From: Bemisia tabaci
Taxonomy: Eukaryota; Arthropoda; Insecta; Hemiptera; Aleyrodidae
Length of the DNA: 64,000 nucleotides
Assembly: GCF_918797505.1 (NCBI RefSeq)
Contig: NC_092794.1
Location: 76,173,345 to 76,237,344, forward strand
Reading direction: 5' to 3'
This document shows, piece by piece, positions 48,118 to 64,000 of the stretch. The notes below the pieces were generated by a model. It ran no database searches. It was given only the letters and a program-made list of their open reading frames with translations, and was not told where the DNA came from. The position numbers and the translations under genes were made by a program. The first letter of the stretch is position 1, and each line of letters opens with the position of its first letter.

Positions 48118-48816
48118 CTAAGTTTTAGGACACCCTTGATGACTTAAAATGGTTAAAATAAAAATCCGTTCACAAGGGCATTTTGACATCCTTATCCCGG
48201 GATACCCTTTATTACATACAATACATGATTTGACATAATTTTCAATTTCGGACACATACCCAGGCCAGTAACATATGAGTTTAGCTTTCTCAATGGTTTT
48301 CCCTGTTCCTAAGTGGGCGTTACCATGTAACAACTTTAAATAGCTAGGCCTTAGTATTGTTCGTATGACGATTCGGTTTTTAAAATACAATATCTCATCA
48401 TTAATTGTTAGATCACATCTCATTTTGAAAAATGGCTGGAGCATTTCTACATTGCATTTAGTCCAGTCTGTCACAAGCAATTGCTTTACCTGATTAATGA
48501 GAGGATCATTTAGACTACCGTTTTGGAGTTCTAAGAATTTTGTATTGGACAGCTGAAATTTAACATCCACACAGTGAACAACATCATTTAGTTGGATTTC
48601 ATCCTCAGGTTTATTACTAACAATAAAGTTTCGCGACAAAAGATCAGCTAGAAGGTTATCTTTTCCCGGTATGTACTTAACTTCTAAATCATATGGAAGC
48701 AATTTCAGCAAAAGACGCTGCAATCTGTTAGACATTATTTGAGAGATATTCTTTTTATAACTCGGCTCTAGTGGTTTGTGATCGTTTTCAATTAAGATTT
48801 TAAAATCATAGACCAT
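48118..48816 (-). pseudogene. pol: RNase H C-terminus and integrase zinc-binding region
   Basis: Back in the RT frame. IENDHKPLE and YIPGKDNLLADLLSRNF are the later RNase H motifs with their Asp residues. About 100 residues on, HGNAHLG and SCIVCNKG give an HHCC-type arrangement (H-x3-H then C-x2-C), the N-terminal zinc-binding domain of Ty3/gypsy integrase. Sequence similarity then stops before any DDE core, next to a G-rich tract, so the element is 3'-truncated. Confidence 0.85.
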
Positions 48817-48863
48817 ATTGTGAAAACGTTTTACTGCAAATACAATACTAAGTAGCTCTTTCT

Positions 48864-49265
48864 CTATTTGAGCGTAGCACGTTTCAGCATCTGATAAGTT
48901 TCTTGACGCAAATGAACCGGCTTTTGATTTTGGATCAGACAGGCTCCAAGACCAAATTGTGAAGTGTCACATTGAATAAGAATTGGCTTTTTGGGATCGA
49001 AACTAGTCAGATTGCCGATGGCGCACTCTGCTTCCTTGATTTTATTAAAACTATCAGAGTGAATTTGCTGCCATGTAAACATAGAATTTTTTTTCAATAA
49101 TCCCCTAAGCGGAGCAACTAGATCTGCTAATTTTGGGATGTGTTCCCTTACATAAGTGATGGTTCCTAAAAAACTTTGTAGCTGTTTCCGGTTTCTGGGA
49201 TTCTTTAATTGCAAGATTGCTTCAAGATAATCAGGATTCAGAGATACCTTTACCGCTAATAACAT
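48864..49265 (-). pseudogene. pol: RT connection and RNase H N-terminal part
   Basis: This segment lies in a different frame from the RT. It reads LQSFLGTITYVREHIPKLAD and then ILIQCDTSQFGLGACLIQ, the first RNase H strand with its catalytic Asp. It overlaps the RT frame by about 35 bases; a second shift near 48830 restores the RT frame, so two indels of opposite sign are inferred. Confidence 0.85.
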
Positions 49266-49953
49266 GCCTCATATAGTTGATCGTAGGTTTCTTGAATTGG
49301 CGTTTATTTTTATTAAATTTAATATTGAGCAATTCAGCCCTTCTCATCACTTCCTTAAATGCAATATCATGTTCCTCTTCCTTTGACCCAGCAATAAGGA
49401 TATCATCGAAATTAAAAATGACATTAGGAATGTCTCCAAAATATTTGGTTAATAATTTCTGAAAAATCTCAGGAGCGCACACAATGCCAAAAGGTAATCT
49501 TAGAAACCTATAACTACCAAATGGTGTGTGAAAACCCATTACTTTGGATGCTTCATGTGTAAGTTTACAATGCCAGAATCCATCCTTAATATCCAGCACT
49601 GTAAGAACGTTTTTTCCTGCTGGCTTAGGTTTAATCTCTTCGAATGAGGGTATGAGAAATAATTCTCTCCTAATGTTTTTAATTAAGTTCCTTGGATCAA
49701 GGCAGATTCTGATGGAATGGTTGTCCTTTTCCACAACAACTAAATTGCTATACCATGCAACATCAGAGACATCATTAGATATTATATTTGAGATTAGTGA
49801 GGTTTCTAATTTTTTCTTTAGAGATGGTAAAATTTTATGCGGCAACCTCCTGGGAGGATCATTGAAAGGTACAGAACTAGGATTAACAAAAACATCAACT
49901 GGATCAGGAAAAGCTCTGAGACCTGTAAAGGAATTAGGAAAGTTAATAAGCAC
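49231..49953 (-). pseudogene. pol: Reverse transcriptase domain
   Basis: A 240-codon frame with recognisable Ty3/gypsy RT blocks: the DPVDVFVNPSSVPFNDPPRR approach, IRICLDPRNLIKNI, VLDIKDGFWHCKL (first catalytic Asp), RFLRLPFGIVCAPEIFQKLL and NVIFNFDDILIAG. The active-site pair is FDD preceded by Phe-Asn, where many relatives have Y or L-x-DD. The frame breaks at 49231, near the start of the connection/RNase H region. It shares frame with the protease pieces. Confidence 0.9.
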
Positions 49954-59039: not shown

Positions 59040-59942
59040 TCAAATGTCCGACCCCCCTAAAAGTTGTCATTTGGTGTGAAAAGAACTTACAAAAAATTTC
59101 AGCTCGATCGGATCATCCTCAAAAGTGCCGCCGGGGCCGACAAGTCTCCCAGCGGGAACTTCAAATTCCGGGCAATTGCGTTTTTTCGTCATTTCGCGAA
59201 TTTTTTTCTCCCGTTTAAAATGTAGCTATGGCTTTGAAACTTTTTGAGGTAACACACTTTTTAAGGTACTTTATGAGAAGAATAACACAATTTACCTCAC
59301 CACTTTTAAAATTCCCCCTTCCTCCCCTCAAAGTGGCCACATCGTGCGATTTCGCCGATTTTTCCTAACATTCTGCCCACACGGTGTGCCTTTCTTGTCG
59401 CTACGGCTTTCAAACTTTTTGAGGTAACACACTTTTTAGAGTACTTTACGAGAAAAATTTCACAACTTACCCCACCACTTTTAAAATTCCCCCTTCCTCC
59501 CCTCAAAGTGGCCACATCGTGCGATTTCGCTGATTTTTCCTAACATTCTGCCCACACGGTGTGCCTTTCTTGTCGCTACGGCTTTCAAACTTTTTGAGGT
59601 AACACACTTTTTAGAGTACTTTACGAGAAAAATTTCACAACTTACCCCACCACTCTACAAATGCCTCCTTCTCCCCCTCAAAGTGGCCACATCGTGCGAT
59701 TTCGCCGATTTTTCCCTACATTCTCCCCGCACGGTTTGCCTGAACAAATGTAACTTTTTTGACAGATCAAAAGCAATGACGCTTCAAATTTATGAAGTTG
59801 AGTGTCTGTCGAGTTATGTAAGCCAAGAAGAAAAACAATCTGTCGAGCTCCTGGAAAATAAAGTTGACTTAGAGGTATTTTATGGCTAAAAGGGGCACTT
59901 TACCGATGGTAAGTCCCGTTATATTACTGAAAATAAAATTCC
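59040..59942. repeat. Dispersed repeat with internal triplication
   Basis: Same family as 36110-36840. A roughly 176-bp unit (CTTTCAAACTTTTTGAGGTA to GCCCACACGGTGTGCC) is present about three times (starting near 59228, 59403 and 59579); the relative at 36 kb has one. The second and third units are almost identical, which implies recent amplification. Confidence 0.85.
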
Positions 59943-60326: not shown

Positions 60327-60339
60327 AAATCAGTAGTAT

Positions 60340-60560
60340 GAAAATGGGAACTTGACCGCGAAAAAAATCCAATAAAAATCGTACAGCGTTGCATGATGGT
60401 GCAGAAAAATACGAATTAAATTAGAGTGTTGTATAAGGATTATTATTCAATATGGCAACGCTGTAAAGTAAAAGTATTGCATGTTGCCCCTTCAATAATC
60501 GGGTTATGCAATCGTGTAATGTAGCCCCTTCAATCTGCGGTTAATGCAATGGTGTATTTT
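60340..60560 (+). repeat. Direct repeat, right copy
   Basis: Partner of 58800-58990; diverged but colinear, with the GTTGCCCCTTCAAT word duplicated within this copy. Confidence 0.75.
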
Positions 60561-60710
60561 TCAAAATGGCGCAGGAGCGTTGCCGCACGGTGGACATAAA
60601 TAAATGATTTATTTATTGGTGAAATTTTGCAACATCGCATTTTACACTGTTGCCAGATGGGGCGAGAAATTAGTTAATTTTTTGGGACAGTGTTGCCAGA
60701 TTGTGCAAAA

Positions 60711-61035
60711 AATTCGGATTTTCGGACTTATAAAAATTTTCGGTTTCGGAAGACCGTATCTAACGGTATGGGCCTGGTATTGGATACTGTAGATTAGGGT
60801 CTGATCCGGGAAATTGAAAAATTTTTGGAAAATCACCCTCCTCCGATCCGTTGCGGATTGATGCGATTCTTTTCCACTTTCGAAGATCGGAAAACTGTAC
60901 TGACCGAATTTTAATACGACTTTTCGTTTCCGAGATTTCGGACTTGTAAAATTTTCGGCTTCGGAAGACCGTATTTTACAGTATGGGGCTGGTACCGGAG
61001 ACTGGAGATTAGGGTCTGATTCGGTAATTTACATT
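60711..61035. repeat. Direct duplication, about 235-bp period
   Basis: GGTTTCGGAAGACCGTAT and TTAGGGTCTGAT-containing blocks at 60711-60830 recur at 60945-61035 with several changes. Confidence 0.7.
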
Positions 61036-61189
61036 TTTTAGCGCTTGGAGATGCGTATCGGACCCTTGTGTTTTGCGATGAGCGACTGGGAATTGGGTAT
61101 TGCAATGCTCAGATTGATGAATCAAAAAATTTTATTATTTTTTTTTTTTGTTGGATATTTACAGTTAAAGTTACAGTTTAAAACAGTTC

Positions 61190-61315
61190 CCGTTTAGAAA
61201 ACGCAAACGCGTTCAGAAAACGCAAACGTAAACGCAAACGCGTTCAGAAAACGCAAACACAAACGCGTTTAGAAAACGTACACGTTCAGAAAACGTGCGC
61301 GTTCTAAAAACGTGA
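61190..61315. repeat. GAAAACGCAAACG minisatellite
   Basis: About six irregular units built from CGTTCAGAAAACGCAAACG and CGTTTAGAAAACG. It ends 7 bases before the stop of the membrane-protein gene. It could be part of a terminal repeat of the virus-like element to its right; no terminal inverted repeat partner lies in the window. Confidence 0.7.
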
Positions 61316-61321
61316 GGGTTG

Positions 61322-61657
61322 TCAACCACAAACATCGATTCCTTCTCCTTCTCCGAACTTTAAATCAACACTTATATCATCGACTTTCCGATTGTTATTT
61401 TTCCGGGCCATCCTGATGAAACGGAACTTGCAGTCGGATGATATGTACTTAGAGTACAGGTACGGAGCGGAGCAAATAAGCGCCAGTAAACTCAAGATGA
61501 ATAGAAGAACGTCCGTCAAGGTAGAGGGTGCGCATTTGATTTCCGGACAGACCGGGCACATTGTGATGTTTGCTTCGGATGAGTTTTCCGCTACCGTTGT
61601 GGAATTCACTCCAACAACAGCAATGATGATGGTGATGAGAAATATTTTATCAATCAT
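61322..61657 (-). CDS. Small secreted/transmembrane protein
   Basis: A 111-codon minus-strand gene with ATG at 61657. Residues 1-20 (MIDKIFLITIIIAVVGVNST) form a signal peptide. A short ectodomain follows with NSS and NIT glycosylation sequons and the Cys cluster MCPVCPEIKCAP. A transmembrane helix spans about residues 48-72 (TDVLLFILSLLALICSAPYL), followed by a basic, then acidic cytoplasmic tail. This is type I membrane topology. No family recognised. A TATA box (61695-61702) lies 38-45 bases upstream and overlaps the stop codon of the neighbouring gene, a compact viral-style layout. A role as a small envelope or membrane protein of the adjacent polymerase-bearing element is inference. Confidence 0.65.
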   Translation of the reverse strand: MIDKIFLITIIIAVVGVNSTTVAENSSEANITMCPVCPEIKCAPSTLTDVLLFILSLLALICSAPYLYSKYISSDCKFRFIRMARKNNNRKVDDISVDLKFGEGEGIDVCG

Positions 61658-61694
61658 GATTTTTTCCTTGCGATACTGAGAAGAGAATGCATAC

Positions 61695-61702
61695 TATTTA
61701 TA
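61695..61702 (-). promoter_or_regulatory. TATA box of membrane-protein gene
   Basis: CGTATAAATAGTATGC on the minus strand, about 38 bases upstream of the ATG at 61657. The flanks CG...GT match the box at 62145-62152. It overlaps the stop codon (61698-61700) of the upstream gene. Confidence 0.65.
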
Positions 61703-62096
61703 CGAAATCTTTACTATAGAGAGCCGCTCTCCTCTCTATGGTGTATAATACTATGCGAATCGCACTCAAAAGTCTGCATATCTTCCAGTCCCGTTCGTCT
61801 ACTTTCTTGTACCCCTGCTTTAAGAAGTACATTATTTCATGCTCGTCTGCGACACGTTCTAGGAGATGGCAAAATCTTTCCGTTATCTCAACTAACCCAT
61901 AACACCCGACGGGATCGGAAGTGTCTATTGAGCTGAGTTTAAGATGGTGGAACAACTTGTCAGGAAAAAGGAGTCTGGCAAACTTGTTCAAAATCTCTGC
62001 TCGTATTCCTGGAATCTTGAAAGAGAGAGCCTCATATACCGTGTCCAAGGTGTTCATCGCTCTAATCGATTGTGATTTGAGGGTTGGAGCGTCCAT
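61698..62096 (-). CDS. Unknown 132-residue helical protein
   Basis: Minus-strand gene. The frame is open further upstream, but the first ATG is at 62096; the upstream extension begins only at a GTG next to the TATA box, so 62096 is preferred. The product is rich in alternating hydrophobic and charged residues, predicted mostly helical (LDTVYEALSFKIPGIRAEIL, ERFCHLLERVADEHEIMYFL), with scattered Cys and a C-terminal RIVLYTIERRAAL. No signal peptide or membrane helix. The helical-bundle pattern loosely recalls death-fold adaptor domains, but I cannot support that identification. It lies head-to-tail with the membrane-protein gene and divergent from the polymerase-like gene. Confidence 0.6.
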   Translation of the reverse strand: MDAPTLKSQSIRAMNTLDTVYEALSFKIPGIRAEILNKFARLLFPDKLFHHLKLSSIDTSDPVGCYGLVEITERFCHLLERVADEHEIMYFLKQGYKKVDERDWKICRLLSAIRIVLYTIERRAALYSKDFV

Positions 62097-62144
62097 ACTT
62101 GACGAGTTCTTGTTTTGAAATGATCGATCACACTTCCTCGACAC

Positions 62145-62152
62145 TATTTATA
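62145..62152 (-). promoter_or_regulatory. TATA box of 132-residue gene
   Basis: ACGTATAAATAGTGTC on the minus strand, 49-56 bases upstream of the ATG at 62096. It shares CGTATAAATAGT with the box at 61695. Confidence 0.65.
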
Positions 62153-62234
62153 CGTTCCCTGACTAGAATTGTTAATTTTTCCCACTTGTATGACAGCGTA
62201 GTTTTATATTACTACTACAAATTATGACTACACA

Positions 62235-62480
62235 GTTTGTCCGAGTGTAATCTAGTCTGGTGATTAGCAAATACTACTATATTTACTTTGATTTAAATTA
62301 CAACGACACAGTTTGTCCGAGTGTAACCGAATCTGGTGATTAAGAAATACTACTATATTAACTTTGATCTAAATCATGACTACACACTTTCTCCGAGTGT
62401 AACCGAGTTTGGTGGTGAACGAATACTACTACTATATTTACCCTGAGGTAAATTATGACTTTACAGTTTCTTTTCACTCG
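62235..62480. repeat. 76-bp tandem repeat, three units
   Basis: CCGAGTGTAA occurs at 62241, 62317 and 62393, an exact 76-base spacing, with GTCTGGTGATTA-like and ATACTACTATATT words in each unit. A degraded fourth unit follows. It lies on the side of the intergenic region facing the minus-strand genes. Confidence 0.85.
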
Positions 62481-62539
62481 GTTATGAAAAGTGTAAATTT
62501 GTCTCCGAGCGAAAGTTCATCGGTCTAGGTTTTGATGAC

Positions 62540-62895
62540 ATTAGAAAACCTCGAGTTTGAAATAGTTTTCACTTGTTCACTCTGAAATCTTTTTCAATGA
62601 ACAGAATCTAGCAAACGTAAAGATAGTATAGATTTTCTGTTGTGACAAACTCAGAAAACTTAGAGCTTAAAATAGTATCACTTGTTCGCTCTGAAATTTT
62701 CTCAGTGAACAGAATCTAGCAAACGTAAAGATAGTGTAGATTTTCTGTGGTGACAAACTCAGAAAACCCCGAGCTTAAAATAGTATCAGTTGTTCGCTAT
62801 GAAATTTTCTTAATGAGCAGACTCTAGCAAACGTTAATAATAGTGTAGATTTCCTTTTCTTACCGACTCAGAAAACGTAAAGCTTAAAATAGTAT
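62540..62895. repeat. 108-bp tandem repeat before polymerase-like gene
   Basis: CTTAAAATAGTATC, TTGTTCGCTCTGAAAT, GAATCTAGCAAACGTAAAGA and TGACAAACTCAGAAAAC recur with periods of 108-109 bases over about three units. The last partial unit runs directly into the ATG at 62903, placing TTAAAATAG about 12 bases upstream. The repeats probably carry promoter or enhancer elements. Confidence 0.85.
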
Positions 62896-62902
62896 CTTTA
62901 TC

Positions 62903-63142
62903 ATGGCTGCTCAAGAACAAACACAACAGATTGTTGAAACTTTCATCCAATGTGATATTTGTGATGAATTTTATAAACAAGGTGAAAAGCACGAACAGTG
63001 TGCGGAACAAATTAAGAAGGAGGAGGGTATCGACGATGAAACGCATATTAAACAGGAGCGCTCATCCATTGTGATGAGTTTTATGCGGAGGGAGAGAATC
63101 ATGAGCAATCTCCCGAACACATTGAAAAGATGTCCACCATGA
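62903..63142 (+). CDS. N-terminal finger region of polymerase-like gene
   Basis: ATG at 62903 in good context (ATCATGG) opens a frame that closes at 63142. Residues 17-36 contain CDICDEFYKQGEKHEQC, a C-x2-C-x9-H finger-like unit. From about 63058 the coding signal moves to the -1 frame, where a second unit with HCDEFY and then a third at 63193 continue the same repeat. The last 25 or so residues of this frame are therefore probably read in the wrong frame. No canonical slippery heptamer in the correct register was seen, so a one-base indel or sequencing error is more likely than programmed frameshifting. Divergent from the minus-strand genes. Confidence 0.55.
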   Translation: MAAQEQTQQIVETFIQCDICDEFYKQGEKHEQCAEQIKKEEGIDDETHIKQERSSIVMSFMRRERIMSNLPNTLKRCPP

Positions 63143-64000
63143 AGGACACCTCATCACCTACCGATGACAACAACGATGAAAATCAAGAATATTGTGACAC
63201 GTGCAAGATCTCATACGATAAAAGAGAAAAACATGAAGAATCTGCAAGTCACATAAGAAATTTGTTTGAGACTAAAGTACCGATTGTTCAAGTTGAGACT
63301 GCTTGTCAAAGTAGGTTGAAAACATTTTTCATCACGAACCTCCAACCGGAGATTCTCATCATCGATGACTACCTACTATCAGCTAAAGACCTCGTGATTG
63401 GAAAAATGAAAGAAGAACTCACCGATGAGGCATTGAAGGTAAATATACTAGTTTACGCAGAATACGAGAAAGCTGACGATAAGGACAAGGAAGGAATGCA
63501 GTTGAAAAAATTCAAGACTAAAAACGAAGCTATTTTCGCGTCAACGGATCTGGACGAGTATTATGAAAAGTTCAGGACAAAGATCAATAAAGAATCATTC
63601 GATTTTCACATGAACGGATCCGGGTGGGTGCTGAAGAAGATACAGGGTATGGAGCTACGTGTAAACCGCTATTACGCGTTACATCGAGGAGGAACGTACG
63701 TTAAGCTTCCGTTTCGAACGAACAATGTTGTCAATGTAAATAACGGTGAATATAACGATTGTTTCTTCTTCGCAATGTTGGCAGAGTTCGTCCCGAAGGA
63801 TGAGAACGATAAATATCGTCCGGAAAAATATGTAGATATACTCCATCATTACGATTTCTCGGTCGTTCGATTCCCCACGAGCATAGATGACATTATCAAA
63901 TTCGAGAAAAGGAACAACGTATCGGTTTCGGTATTTGGCCTCCGTGAGAGTTTGGTGTCCAACAAGAAAAAGTATACAGTTTACGCAATTAAAGTTGCCG
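63130..64000 (+). CDS. Polinton/adintovirus-type polymerase B N-terminal region, partial
   Basis: The frame is open from 63052; the first ATG is at 63130, and it runs through the window end (290 codons here). It begins with an acidic linker and a Cys/His unit (C22, C25, H35, H41). A charged region follows, then a conserved-looking block: NGSGWVLKKIQGMELRVNRY (162-181), TYVKLPF, NDCFFFAMLAEF (209-220) and FEKRNNVSVSVFGL (258-271). From memory, this block is shared by many arthropod and cnidarian proteins that precede or form the N-terminus of Polinton- and adintovirus-type protein-primed DNA polymerase B. Exonuclease and polymerase motifs would lie beyond the window. It probably forms one gene with 62903-63142. 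Confidence 0.6.
   Translation, partial: MSTMKDTSSPTDDNNDENQEYCDTCKISYDKREKHEESASHIRNLFETKVPIVQVETACQSRLKTFFITNLQPEILIIDDYLLSAKDLVIGKMKEELTDEALKVNILVYAEYEKADDKDKEGMQLKKFKTKNEAIFASTDLDEYYEKFRTKINKESFDFHMNGSGWVLKKIQGMELRVNRYYALHRGGTYVKLPFRTNNVVNVNNGEYNDCFFFAMLAEFVPKDENDKYRPEKYVDILHHYDFSVVRFPTSIDDIIKFEKRNNVSVSVFGLRESLVSNKKKYTVYAIKVA

Follow-up and report, generated by a model that had tools for sequence, protein, structure and literature searches.

Identification of the element

The right end of a 64-kb stretch of the Bemisia tabaci genome (the window; it sits on contig C2 of the 610-Mb assembly searched in this work) carries a compact block of genes, and the question arises to what kind of element this block belongs. 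The original prediction regarded it as one end of a Polinton/adintovirus-like element, composed of two tightly packed minus-strand genes and a divergent plus-strand gene. Our analysis indicates that the block almost certainly forms the left end of a Polinton/adintovirus (Eupolintoviridae, formerly Adintoviridae) endogenous to B. tabaci. This class of elements is already known, and the unusual part is an accessory gene common to two lineages of polymerase B (PolB). Both minus-strand open reading frames (ORFs) exist as described, and the apparent lack of introns in the block fits the single-frame matches obtained. The features distinguished within the window are presented in Table 1.

Table 1. 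Features of the element located within the window.
Feature	Position	Strand	Remarks
Left terminal repeat	60332..61189	.	terminus AGTAGTATG at 60332; matches left end of sister copy L061
Short AAACGC/GTTCAG tandem repeats	61180..61313	.	between terminal repeat and first gene
Accessory gene, 111 aa	61322..61657	-	ORF; sequence features
TATA-box motif CGTATAAATAGT of 111-aa gene	61693..61704	-	36 bases upstream of start codon
Accessory gene, 132 aa	61698..62096	-	ORF; from ATG 62096
TATA-box motif CGTATAAATAGT of 132-aa gene	62143..62154	-	47 bases upstream of start codon
76-bp tandem repeat, 3.3 copies	62219..62469	.	between divergent genes
108-bp tandem repeat, 3.2 copies	62543..62896	.	three occurrences of CTTAAAATAGTATC within
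PolB N-terminus and first Cys/His finger	62903..63073	+	frame breaks after finger in window copy
PolB continued, other frame	63055..63999	+	further Cys/His fingers; runs past window end

The polymerase gene

The divergent plus-strand gene with Cys/His repeats is real, although its start was initially placed at 63130; the correct start is the ATG at 62903, because the first finger lies out of frame with the rest and the relatives P0001 and P0002 are continuous across the break. A further Cys/His finger begins at 63193, and the region at about 63256-63610 may represent the terminal-protein domain of PolB, a placement taken from the published domain order. An N-terminal OTU-like cysteine protease domain is present in PolBs of Eupolintoviridae/Polintons (PMC11071296, PMC11071308). 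The first part of a putative domain of this type lies within the window, with the conserved Cys codon at 63760-63762; the Cys and His positions are common to the window PolB and P0017, the His codon being located at L059:63. This OTU-like region gave no match to the Pfam OTU family, and the mean pLDDT of the structure model of the N-terminal part of PolB (P0003) was only 39.

The suggested resemblance of the N-terminal block to Polinton/adintovirus PolBs was borne out: a Polinton-like IMG/VR contig encodes a PolB of 1286 aa, the N-terminus of which is homologous to the block (E 1.2e-7). Relatives of this block in B. tabaci run on into an exonuclease-I motif. In the sequence to the right of the window, analyzed as two pieces (L059 and L060), the gene continues at L059:18-2708, for which tblastn with the full-length 1286-aa relative as a query gave an E-value of 1e-139. 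Both exonuclease and palm-region sequence, including a DTDS motif, are present in this part, which scored 42.2 bits against Pfam DNA_pol_B_2 (cut-off 25.8).

Hallmark genes downstream of the window

The original prediction was open to rejection if PolB motifs and any capsid or ATPase gene were lacking further to the right; besides the PolB sequence, we found there the rve integrase, the double-jelly-roll capsid domain and the A32/FtsK-type ATPase that characterize Eupolintoviridae/Polintons, as well as a protease-like ORF. The rve integrase core (L060:656-922) scored 53.2 bits (Pfam cut-off 32.6). Polinton integrases have a C-terminal chromodomain (PMC11071296); a chromo-like stretch was recognized by eye after an insert in the window-copy integrase, and for another element, located on contig C3 and described below, the Pfam Chromo score was 22.4, i.e., under the cut-off of 25.1. 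The capsid was identified by DJR-like_dom (87.6 bits, cut-off 27; E 1.2e-24). The match falls in the later portion of the profile (positions 133-311 of 316), and the neighboring ORFs, which we take to be the rest of the capsid gene, had no Pfam match of their own. The ATPase passed the Pox_A32 cut-off narrowly (23.8 bits vs 22.8). The protease-like ORF is similar to an ORF of the C3 element (E 1.3e-9), neither of them having a Pfam match above the cut-off. ORF L059:5780-6481, which has no Pfam match, may, by its size and place, be the penton (single jelly roll).

A PolB of the same lineage is also found in bidnaviruses, so the element could be read as bidnavirus-like, that is, as a Polinton-derived PolB joined to parvovirus-type genes; moreover, it contains a Phospholip_A2_4 domain (36.9 bits, cut-off 23.9), and domains of this type also occur in the coat proteins of parvoviruses. 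However, Bidnaviridae combine PolB with a parvovirus-type NS1 helicase and a single-jelly-roll capsid (PMC11071296), whereas the capsid domain found here is a double jelly roll, accompanied by an rve integrase and the A32-type ATPase, and no NS1 helicase match was found among the downstream ORFs and pieces scanned (10 + 4, one repeated). The bidnavirus-like reading is thus very improbable.

The Polinton/adintovirus holds the genes of a self-replicating, integrating and capsid-forming DNA element. Going by the known biology of the family, the linear genome would be copied by PolB, whose first domain would prime the synthesis of DNA and be cut off by the OTU-like cysteine protease domain. The rve integrase would insert the element, making a 6-bp duplication, and the capsid protein, ATPase and protease would build and fill the particles.

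Extent and state of the window copy

The window copy spans from 60332 to about 13.4 kb beyond the window end, which gives 17.0 kb including a 1.3-kb insert. Its start is thus to the left of 61190, where it had been placed before: the left end from 60332 is 91.7% identical over 1011 positions to the left end of the sister copy L061, counted from the terminus of the latter. A left end at 60691 was considered and rejected as too short.

Polintons are bounded by terminal inverted repeats and a 6-bp target duplication. Both were found in sister copies, but the window copy does not conform to this pattern. Its end repeats (60691-61189 vs L060:3327-2829, inverted) are 78% alike over 508 positions and no target duplication was seen, the flanks being AAAATC and CAGAGC; its two ends are therefore unlike those of one clean insertion. 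PolB is interrupted by one frame break and four in-frame stops, and the integrase by stops and the 1.3-kb insert, so the window copy is dead, unable to work as it stands.

Accessory genes and the intergenic region

A search of both strands of the 64-kb window for the 12-mer CGTATAAATAGT, as two overlapping 11-mers, gave just two occurrences, upstream of the two minus-strand genes and 450 bp apart, in agreement with the matching TATA boxes reported earlier. Inspection of the sequence shows that the 132-aa gene ends within the TATA box of the 111-aa gene, which includes its stop codon. The third occurrence of CTTAAAATAGTATC is directly before the PolB start. The tandem repeats with TATA-like motifs may constitute a two-way promoter region, serving PolB on one side and the accessory pair on the other.

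The 111-aa protein has a hydrophobic N-terminus, read as a signal peptide, a short ectodomain with Cys residues and N-glycosylation sequons, a single membrane segment (residues ~44-68) and a basic tail past it, and is predicted to be a small type I membrane protein. The 132-aa protein (148 aa when read from a GTG) is helical according to a low-confidence structure model (mean pLDDT 47) and is a putative helical host-interaction factor. The original prediction recognized neither protein, and in our searches as well no known family was matched: in NCBIfam, PHROGs and Pfam, the proteins of the window had no hit above a cut-off or only hits at chance level, and PDB sequence searches gave nothing significant.

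This lack of a known family, together with the finding of relatives only in Bemisia or in short contigs, could indicate that the pair consists of host genes caught beside insertions. Such an origin is highly unlikely, as the pair lies inside the terminal repeats of sister copies and the gene order is kept in 20/20 sister blocks (chosen for having both accessory genes). Moreover, a divergent 111-aa match is present upstream, within 6 kb, at 90 of the 136 PolB matches (in the same orientation at 0/136), and a relative of the 132-aa protein sits next to the PolB of the C3 element. The linkage was counted over all 136 PolB and 150 111-aa matches, which may include pieces of one copy; 46/136 PolB matches had no 111-aa gene inside 6 kb, and these included 6 of the 30 PolB matches whose open frame reaches 1200 aa or more.

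The element family in the B. tabaci genome

Matches in the genome (fragments included) number at least 136 for the PolB fragment, 150 for the 111-aa protein and 140 for the 132-aa protein, and the block is therefore more than a chance assembly. Six sister copies measured 15.1-16.4 kb. Their end repeats of 474-651 bp were 96.7-99.5% alike in 6/6 copies whose right piece reached the end (that of a seventh copy stopped short of it), and a 6-bp target duplication was seen by eye in 5/6. Five distant PolB matches (40-43%) were also found, four of which were inspected.

Apart from PolB, the window alone shows no hallmark gene, and fragments are common among the copies, which would suit a PolB gene standing by itself or one domesticated by the host, outside any virus-like element, but the hallmark genes that follow within ~11 kb and the 15-16 kb units bracketed by terminal repeats in sister copies make this a negligible prospect.

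Between two subfamilies of the Polinton/adintovirus, the dN/dS values (best aligned stretch per pair; pairs non-independent) were 0.26 for the 111-aa gene, 0.32 for the 132-aa gene and 0.33 for PolB. Within subfamilies the picture is less clear: in subfamily A the values were 0.32 for the 111-aa gene, 1.85 for the 132-aa gene (with dS close to zero) and 0.27 for PolB, and in subfamily B they were 0.54, 0.13 and 0.47 in the same order.

The shared 132-aa protein

A relative of the 132-aa protein (29% identity) adjoins a very different PolB in the second element on contig C3, around which no inverted end repeats were found in the C3 sequence examined. The possibility that the 132-aa protein came from the host was considered and dropped, as the C3 locus of its relative turned out to be another PolB element. 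When a gene is retained next to polymerases that are unrelated to each other within a single host, it probably acts on this host, and the 132-aa protein is worth studying because it is common to two polymerase lineages. We tentatively suggest that it could represent a new adintovirus accessory family, passed, within one insect, between two adintovirus lineages whose polymerases differ greatly, which would point to a host-specific job (e.g., blocking cell death or immune signaling), and that the main lineage could be a recently, perhaps still, active whitefly virus. B. tabaci is an important pest and a vector of viruses, and the large adintovirus family in its genome, which was amplified recently, is relevant to the question of whether insects carry live adintoviruses.

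It is worth mentioning that the dead state of the window copy, its mismatched ends, the highly multicopy family and the accessory protein common to a second PolB lineage were not foreseen by the original prediction.

Comparison with known elements

Polintons are 15-20 kb in length (PMC4028283), and both the sister copies and the window copy fall within this range. The Drosophila-associated adintoviruses 1-3, insect members of Eupolintoviridae known from possibly integrated contigs of 13.3-14.6 kb, encode PolB, an rve-type integrase, a capsid protein, an FtsK-type ATPase and a protease (PMC8363768); their likeness to the whitefly element is one of gene content, and the latter differs in having two orphan genes divergent from PolB and in being multicopy. 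In B. tabaci itself, 6723 copies of Mavericks, the same class of elements, were tabulated (PMC9143410), and the family described here is probably part of that count. The section of that source presenting the copy counts describes neither the genes that the elements contain nor any accessory genes or further PolB lineage.

The contig IMGVR_UViG_3300028392_002905 (L005/L006) carries the 1286-aa PolB with the same N-terminal block (33% identity to the whitefly PolB over the aligned part), an rve integrase and an A32-type ATPase; neither the 111-aa nor the 132-aa protein had a match on it. No match to the PolB fragment was found in the phage collection and no relative of P0003 in the genome-contig collection, while protein and alignment scans of the viral-contig collection gave nothing or only this contig. 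It was also the sole PolB among the 44 stretches of a second motif scan, in which 24 other stretches, with the motif in an ORF of at least 150 aa, look by eye like endonuclease VII genes.

Identification of the Plus-Strand Gene as PolB

The window was placed at G000:C2:76173345-76237344 of the 610-Mb Bemisia tabaci assembly, and the closest named protein match belongs to the same species (94% over 97% of the query). The features of the gene block at its right end, together with those of the related loci, are presented in the table. The original observation of a minus-strand gene pair with matching TATA boxes was borne out, as both ORFs are present and the 12-mer CGTATAAATAGT stands before each of them; searched for as two overlapping 11-mers, it has only these two occurrences in the whole window, at distances of 36 and 47 bases on the upstream side of the minus-strand starts. 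The true start of the plus-strand gene is at 62903. The first finger lies in a different frame from the remainder and the window copy is therefore broken near its start, at a place where two relatives of the gene (P0001 and P0002) are uninterrupted.

Coordinates of the analyzed features (positions in the window unless a locus is named)
Feature	Position	Strand	Remarks
Plus-strand reading frame	63130 to window end, 290 codons	+	still open at window end
111-aa ORF	61322-61657	-	left of plus-strand frame
132-aa ORF	61698-62096, ATG 62096	-	left of plus-strand frame
Tandem-repeat array, 76 bp x 3.3			between divergent genes
Tandem-repeat array, 108 bp x 3.2			between divergent genes
Conserved Cys of putative OTU-like domain	63760-63762	+	corresponding His codon: L059, base 63
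Whole element	60332 to L060:3362		17.0 kb, insert included
Insert in integrase gene	L060:1284-2583		1300 bp
C3 element	G000:C3:56040500-56060000 (L093, L096)		PolB, rve integrase, RING-finger gene, 132-aa relative

Three B. tabaci relatives opening with the same block as the plus-strand gene carry an exonuclease-I motif downstream (YADFE in two, YAQFE in one). A pattern scan of IMG/VR led to a contig (IMGVR_UViG_3300028392_002905) encoding a 1286-aa PolB, and residues 164-278 of the window fragment match the N-terminal part of this protein (E 1.2e-7, with 553 ORFs searched). The contig is Polinton-like, because it encodes both an rve integrase (33.2 bits against a cut-off of 32.6) and an A32-type ATPase (42.9 against 22.8). 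The polymerase motifs of its PolB were recognised by eye, and DNA_pol_B_2 was absent from the Pfam listing for this protein at E up to 0.1. The window's PolB extends into L059, the adjoining sequence, where it contains four in-frame stops; 958 positions could be aligned to the IMG/VR protein (E 1e-139). The N-terminal match and this continuation confirmed that the plus-strand gene encodes the N-terminus of a Polinton/adintovirus PolB, as had been proposed. In a structural study (PMC11071308), two domains are placed ahead of the catalytic part of such polymerases, first a terminal-protein-like one and after it an OTU-like cysteine protease, and the protease was proposed to release the priming domain.

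Remainder of the Element

The sequence to the right of the window was analyzed as two 10-kb pieces, L059 and L060. Domains above the Pfam cut-off were DNA_pol_B_2, DJR-like_dom, Phospholip_A2_4, and Pox_A32, with rve above it in L060, and thus the hallmark genes expected downstream (polymerase, integrase, ATPase, and capsid) were found. The capsid match spans the later part of the DJR-like_dom profile, and the adjoining ORFs, taken as the remaining capsid gene, were without a Pfam match. The integrase region contains stops, and the gene is interrupted by an insert. The inverted ends of this insert resemble each other and it shows an 8-bp duplication (ATTGTCAG), from which we take it to be hAT-like. 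The candidate for the anticipated adenain-like protease is a protease-like ORF similar to an ORF of the C3 element (E 1.3e-9). Another ORF is a candidate penton gene.

The Phospholip_A2_4 domain counts in favour of a bidnavirus-like reading of the element, which is very unlikely in view of the rve integrase and the double-jelly-roll capsid domain. The reading of the element as a Polinton/adintovirus follows the adintovirus definition of PMC11071296 and the Polinton gene set of PMC4028283. Replication, integration, and particle assembly would proceed as deduced from the named genes and published Polinton biology.

Earlier work states that Mavericks were already counted in B. tabaci (PMC9143410), that adintoviruses were described from Drosophila samples (PMC8363768), and that the adintovirus family has since been renamed Eupolintoviridae (PMC12451622). 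In titles and abstract openings of the top-ranked open-licence literature (whitefly or Bemisia with Polinton, Maverick, or adintovirus), no description of the genes of the whitefly family was found.

The Family in the Whitefly Genome

Searches of the assembly yielded at least 136 matches of the PolB fragment, 150 of the 111-aa protein, and 140 of the 132-aa protein (lower bounds, with fragments counted in). For 30 of the 136 PolB matches, the frame stays open over at least 1200 aa and the matched part has no stop. A divergent 111-aa match lies upstream within 6 kb of 90 of the 136 (median 1.9 kb) and of 24 of the 30 long frames, and none of the 136 has one in the same orientation. Among 20 sister blocks, which were selected for linkage, the order of all three genes is kept in every one, and 16 have exact copies of both TATA 12-mers at a spacing of 450 bp. 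The aligned part of the 111-aa frame contains a stop in a single block. The 132-aa frame is interrupted in L067 by a stop at codon 121 and in L069 by a frame break. A stop at codon 127, common to 11 of the 20 blocks, was taken to be where a slightly shorter protein naturally ends.

The dN/dS values for the 111-aa, 132-aa, and PolB genes were, respectively, 0.26, 0.32, and 0.33 between the two subfamilies, 0.32, 1.85, and 0.27 within subfamily A (the 1.85 being uninformative, because dS is near zero), and 0.54, 0.13, and 0.47 within subfamily B. In our reading, all three genes were under selection during the spread of the family. At the PolB N-terminus (L070-L080), extra matches to the first Cys/His finger were seen in subfamily B copies, so that PolB copies seem to differ in how many N-terminal fingers they have.

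Six of seven sister end pairs have terminal repeats, which are 474-651 bp long and 96.7-99.5% alike; in the seventh, the right-hand piece ended before the end of the element. These six copies are 15.1-16.4 kb long. Read by eye, five are flanked by a 6-bp duplication (GTCATC, GACTTT, CACTTT, CACAAC, and CTTGGG), and none was seen in the sixth, L075. The copy with GACTTT deviates at the three outermost bases of its right end.

The 111-aa matches are concentrated on contigs C1 (53) and C2 (50), which hold 103 of the 150. They cluster at 0-2.2 Mb (7), 35.8-44.9 Mb (31), and 84.8-92.3 Mb (13) of C1, and at 29-41 Mb (29) and 75.9-79.7 Mb (14) of C2. Insertion or retention of the element is uneven along the chromosomes.

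Accessory Proteins and a Second Element

The 111-aa protein has two hydrophobic segments (at the N-terminus and at about 44-68), N-glycosylation sequons at 18, 25, and 30, and cysteines at 34, 37, and 42. By its sequence, it is predicted to be a small type I membrane protein, which might act in entry, exit, or surface change. The 132-aa protein, which is predicted to be helical and for which no family match was found, may act in host interaction. In the IMG/VR loci examined, neither protein had a match at E below 0.1.

A relative of the 132-aa protein was found on contig C3 (E 6.1e-6, 29% identity), and in the reverse search the window's copy ranked first after the query itself (E 2.7e-6). With a four-relative profile the C3 protein scored 30.7 bits versus 12.1 for the best of 20,000 shuffles; in the pairwise control, three of four relatives outscored every one of 1,500 shuffles, and for the C7 relative one shuffle of 1,500 reached its score. 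Beyond 25-29% matches, no second copy of the C3 relative was found. Its neighbour is a PolB of a different lineage (DNA_pol_B_2 117 bits; best match to the IMG/VR PolB at E 0.027). Downstream of it, the rve integrase and the RING-finger gene are above cut-off; Chromo and Pox_A32 matches are below it, and no Pfam match was obtained for the putative capsid, penton, and protease ORFs. The C3 element is adintovirus-like, with a PolB very different from that of the window.

Contig C7 holds a 79% PolB relative, accompanied by a relative (67%) of the 132-aa gene and by a 111-aa gene remnant. In a stretch of C7 (L085, G000:C7:28943000-28950047), 500 bases are N. For four distant PolB copies (about 40%; C5, C6, and C8), the upstream pieces contain neither accessory gene above chance level.

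Ends of the Window Copy

The window copy and sister L061 are 91.7% alike at the left end. The right repeat of the window copy resembles the left repeat of that copy at 78% and the repeats of the sisters compared at about 75-82%, and the flanking bases are unequal (AAAATC versus CAGAGC). The copy may be two insertions put together, or its right end may be much older than the rest. Just outside the element, at 59221-59741, there is a 175-bp tandem repeat (3 copies, 92% matches). Farther left, reverse transcriptase, RNase H, and H2C2 integrase domains, each in its own ORF on the minus strand (48118-49953), look like a decayed LTR-type retroelement.
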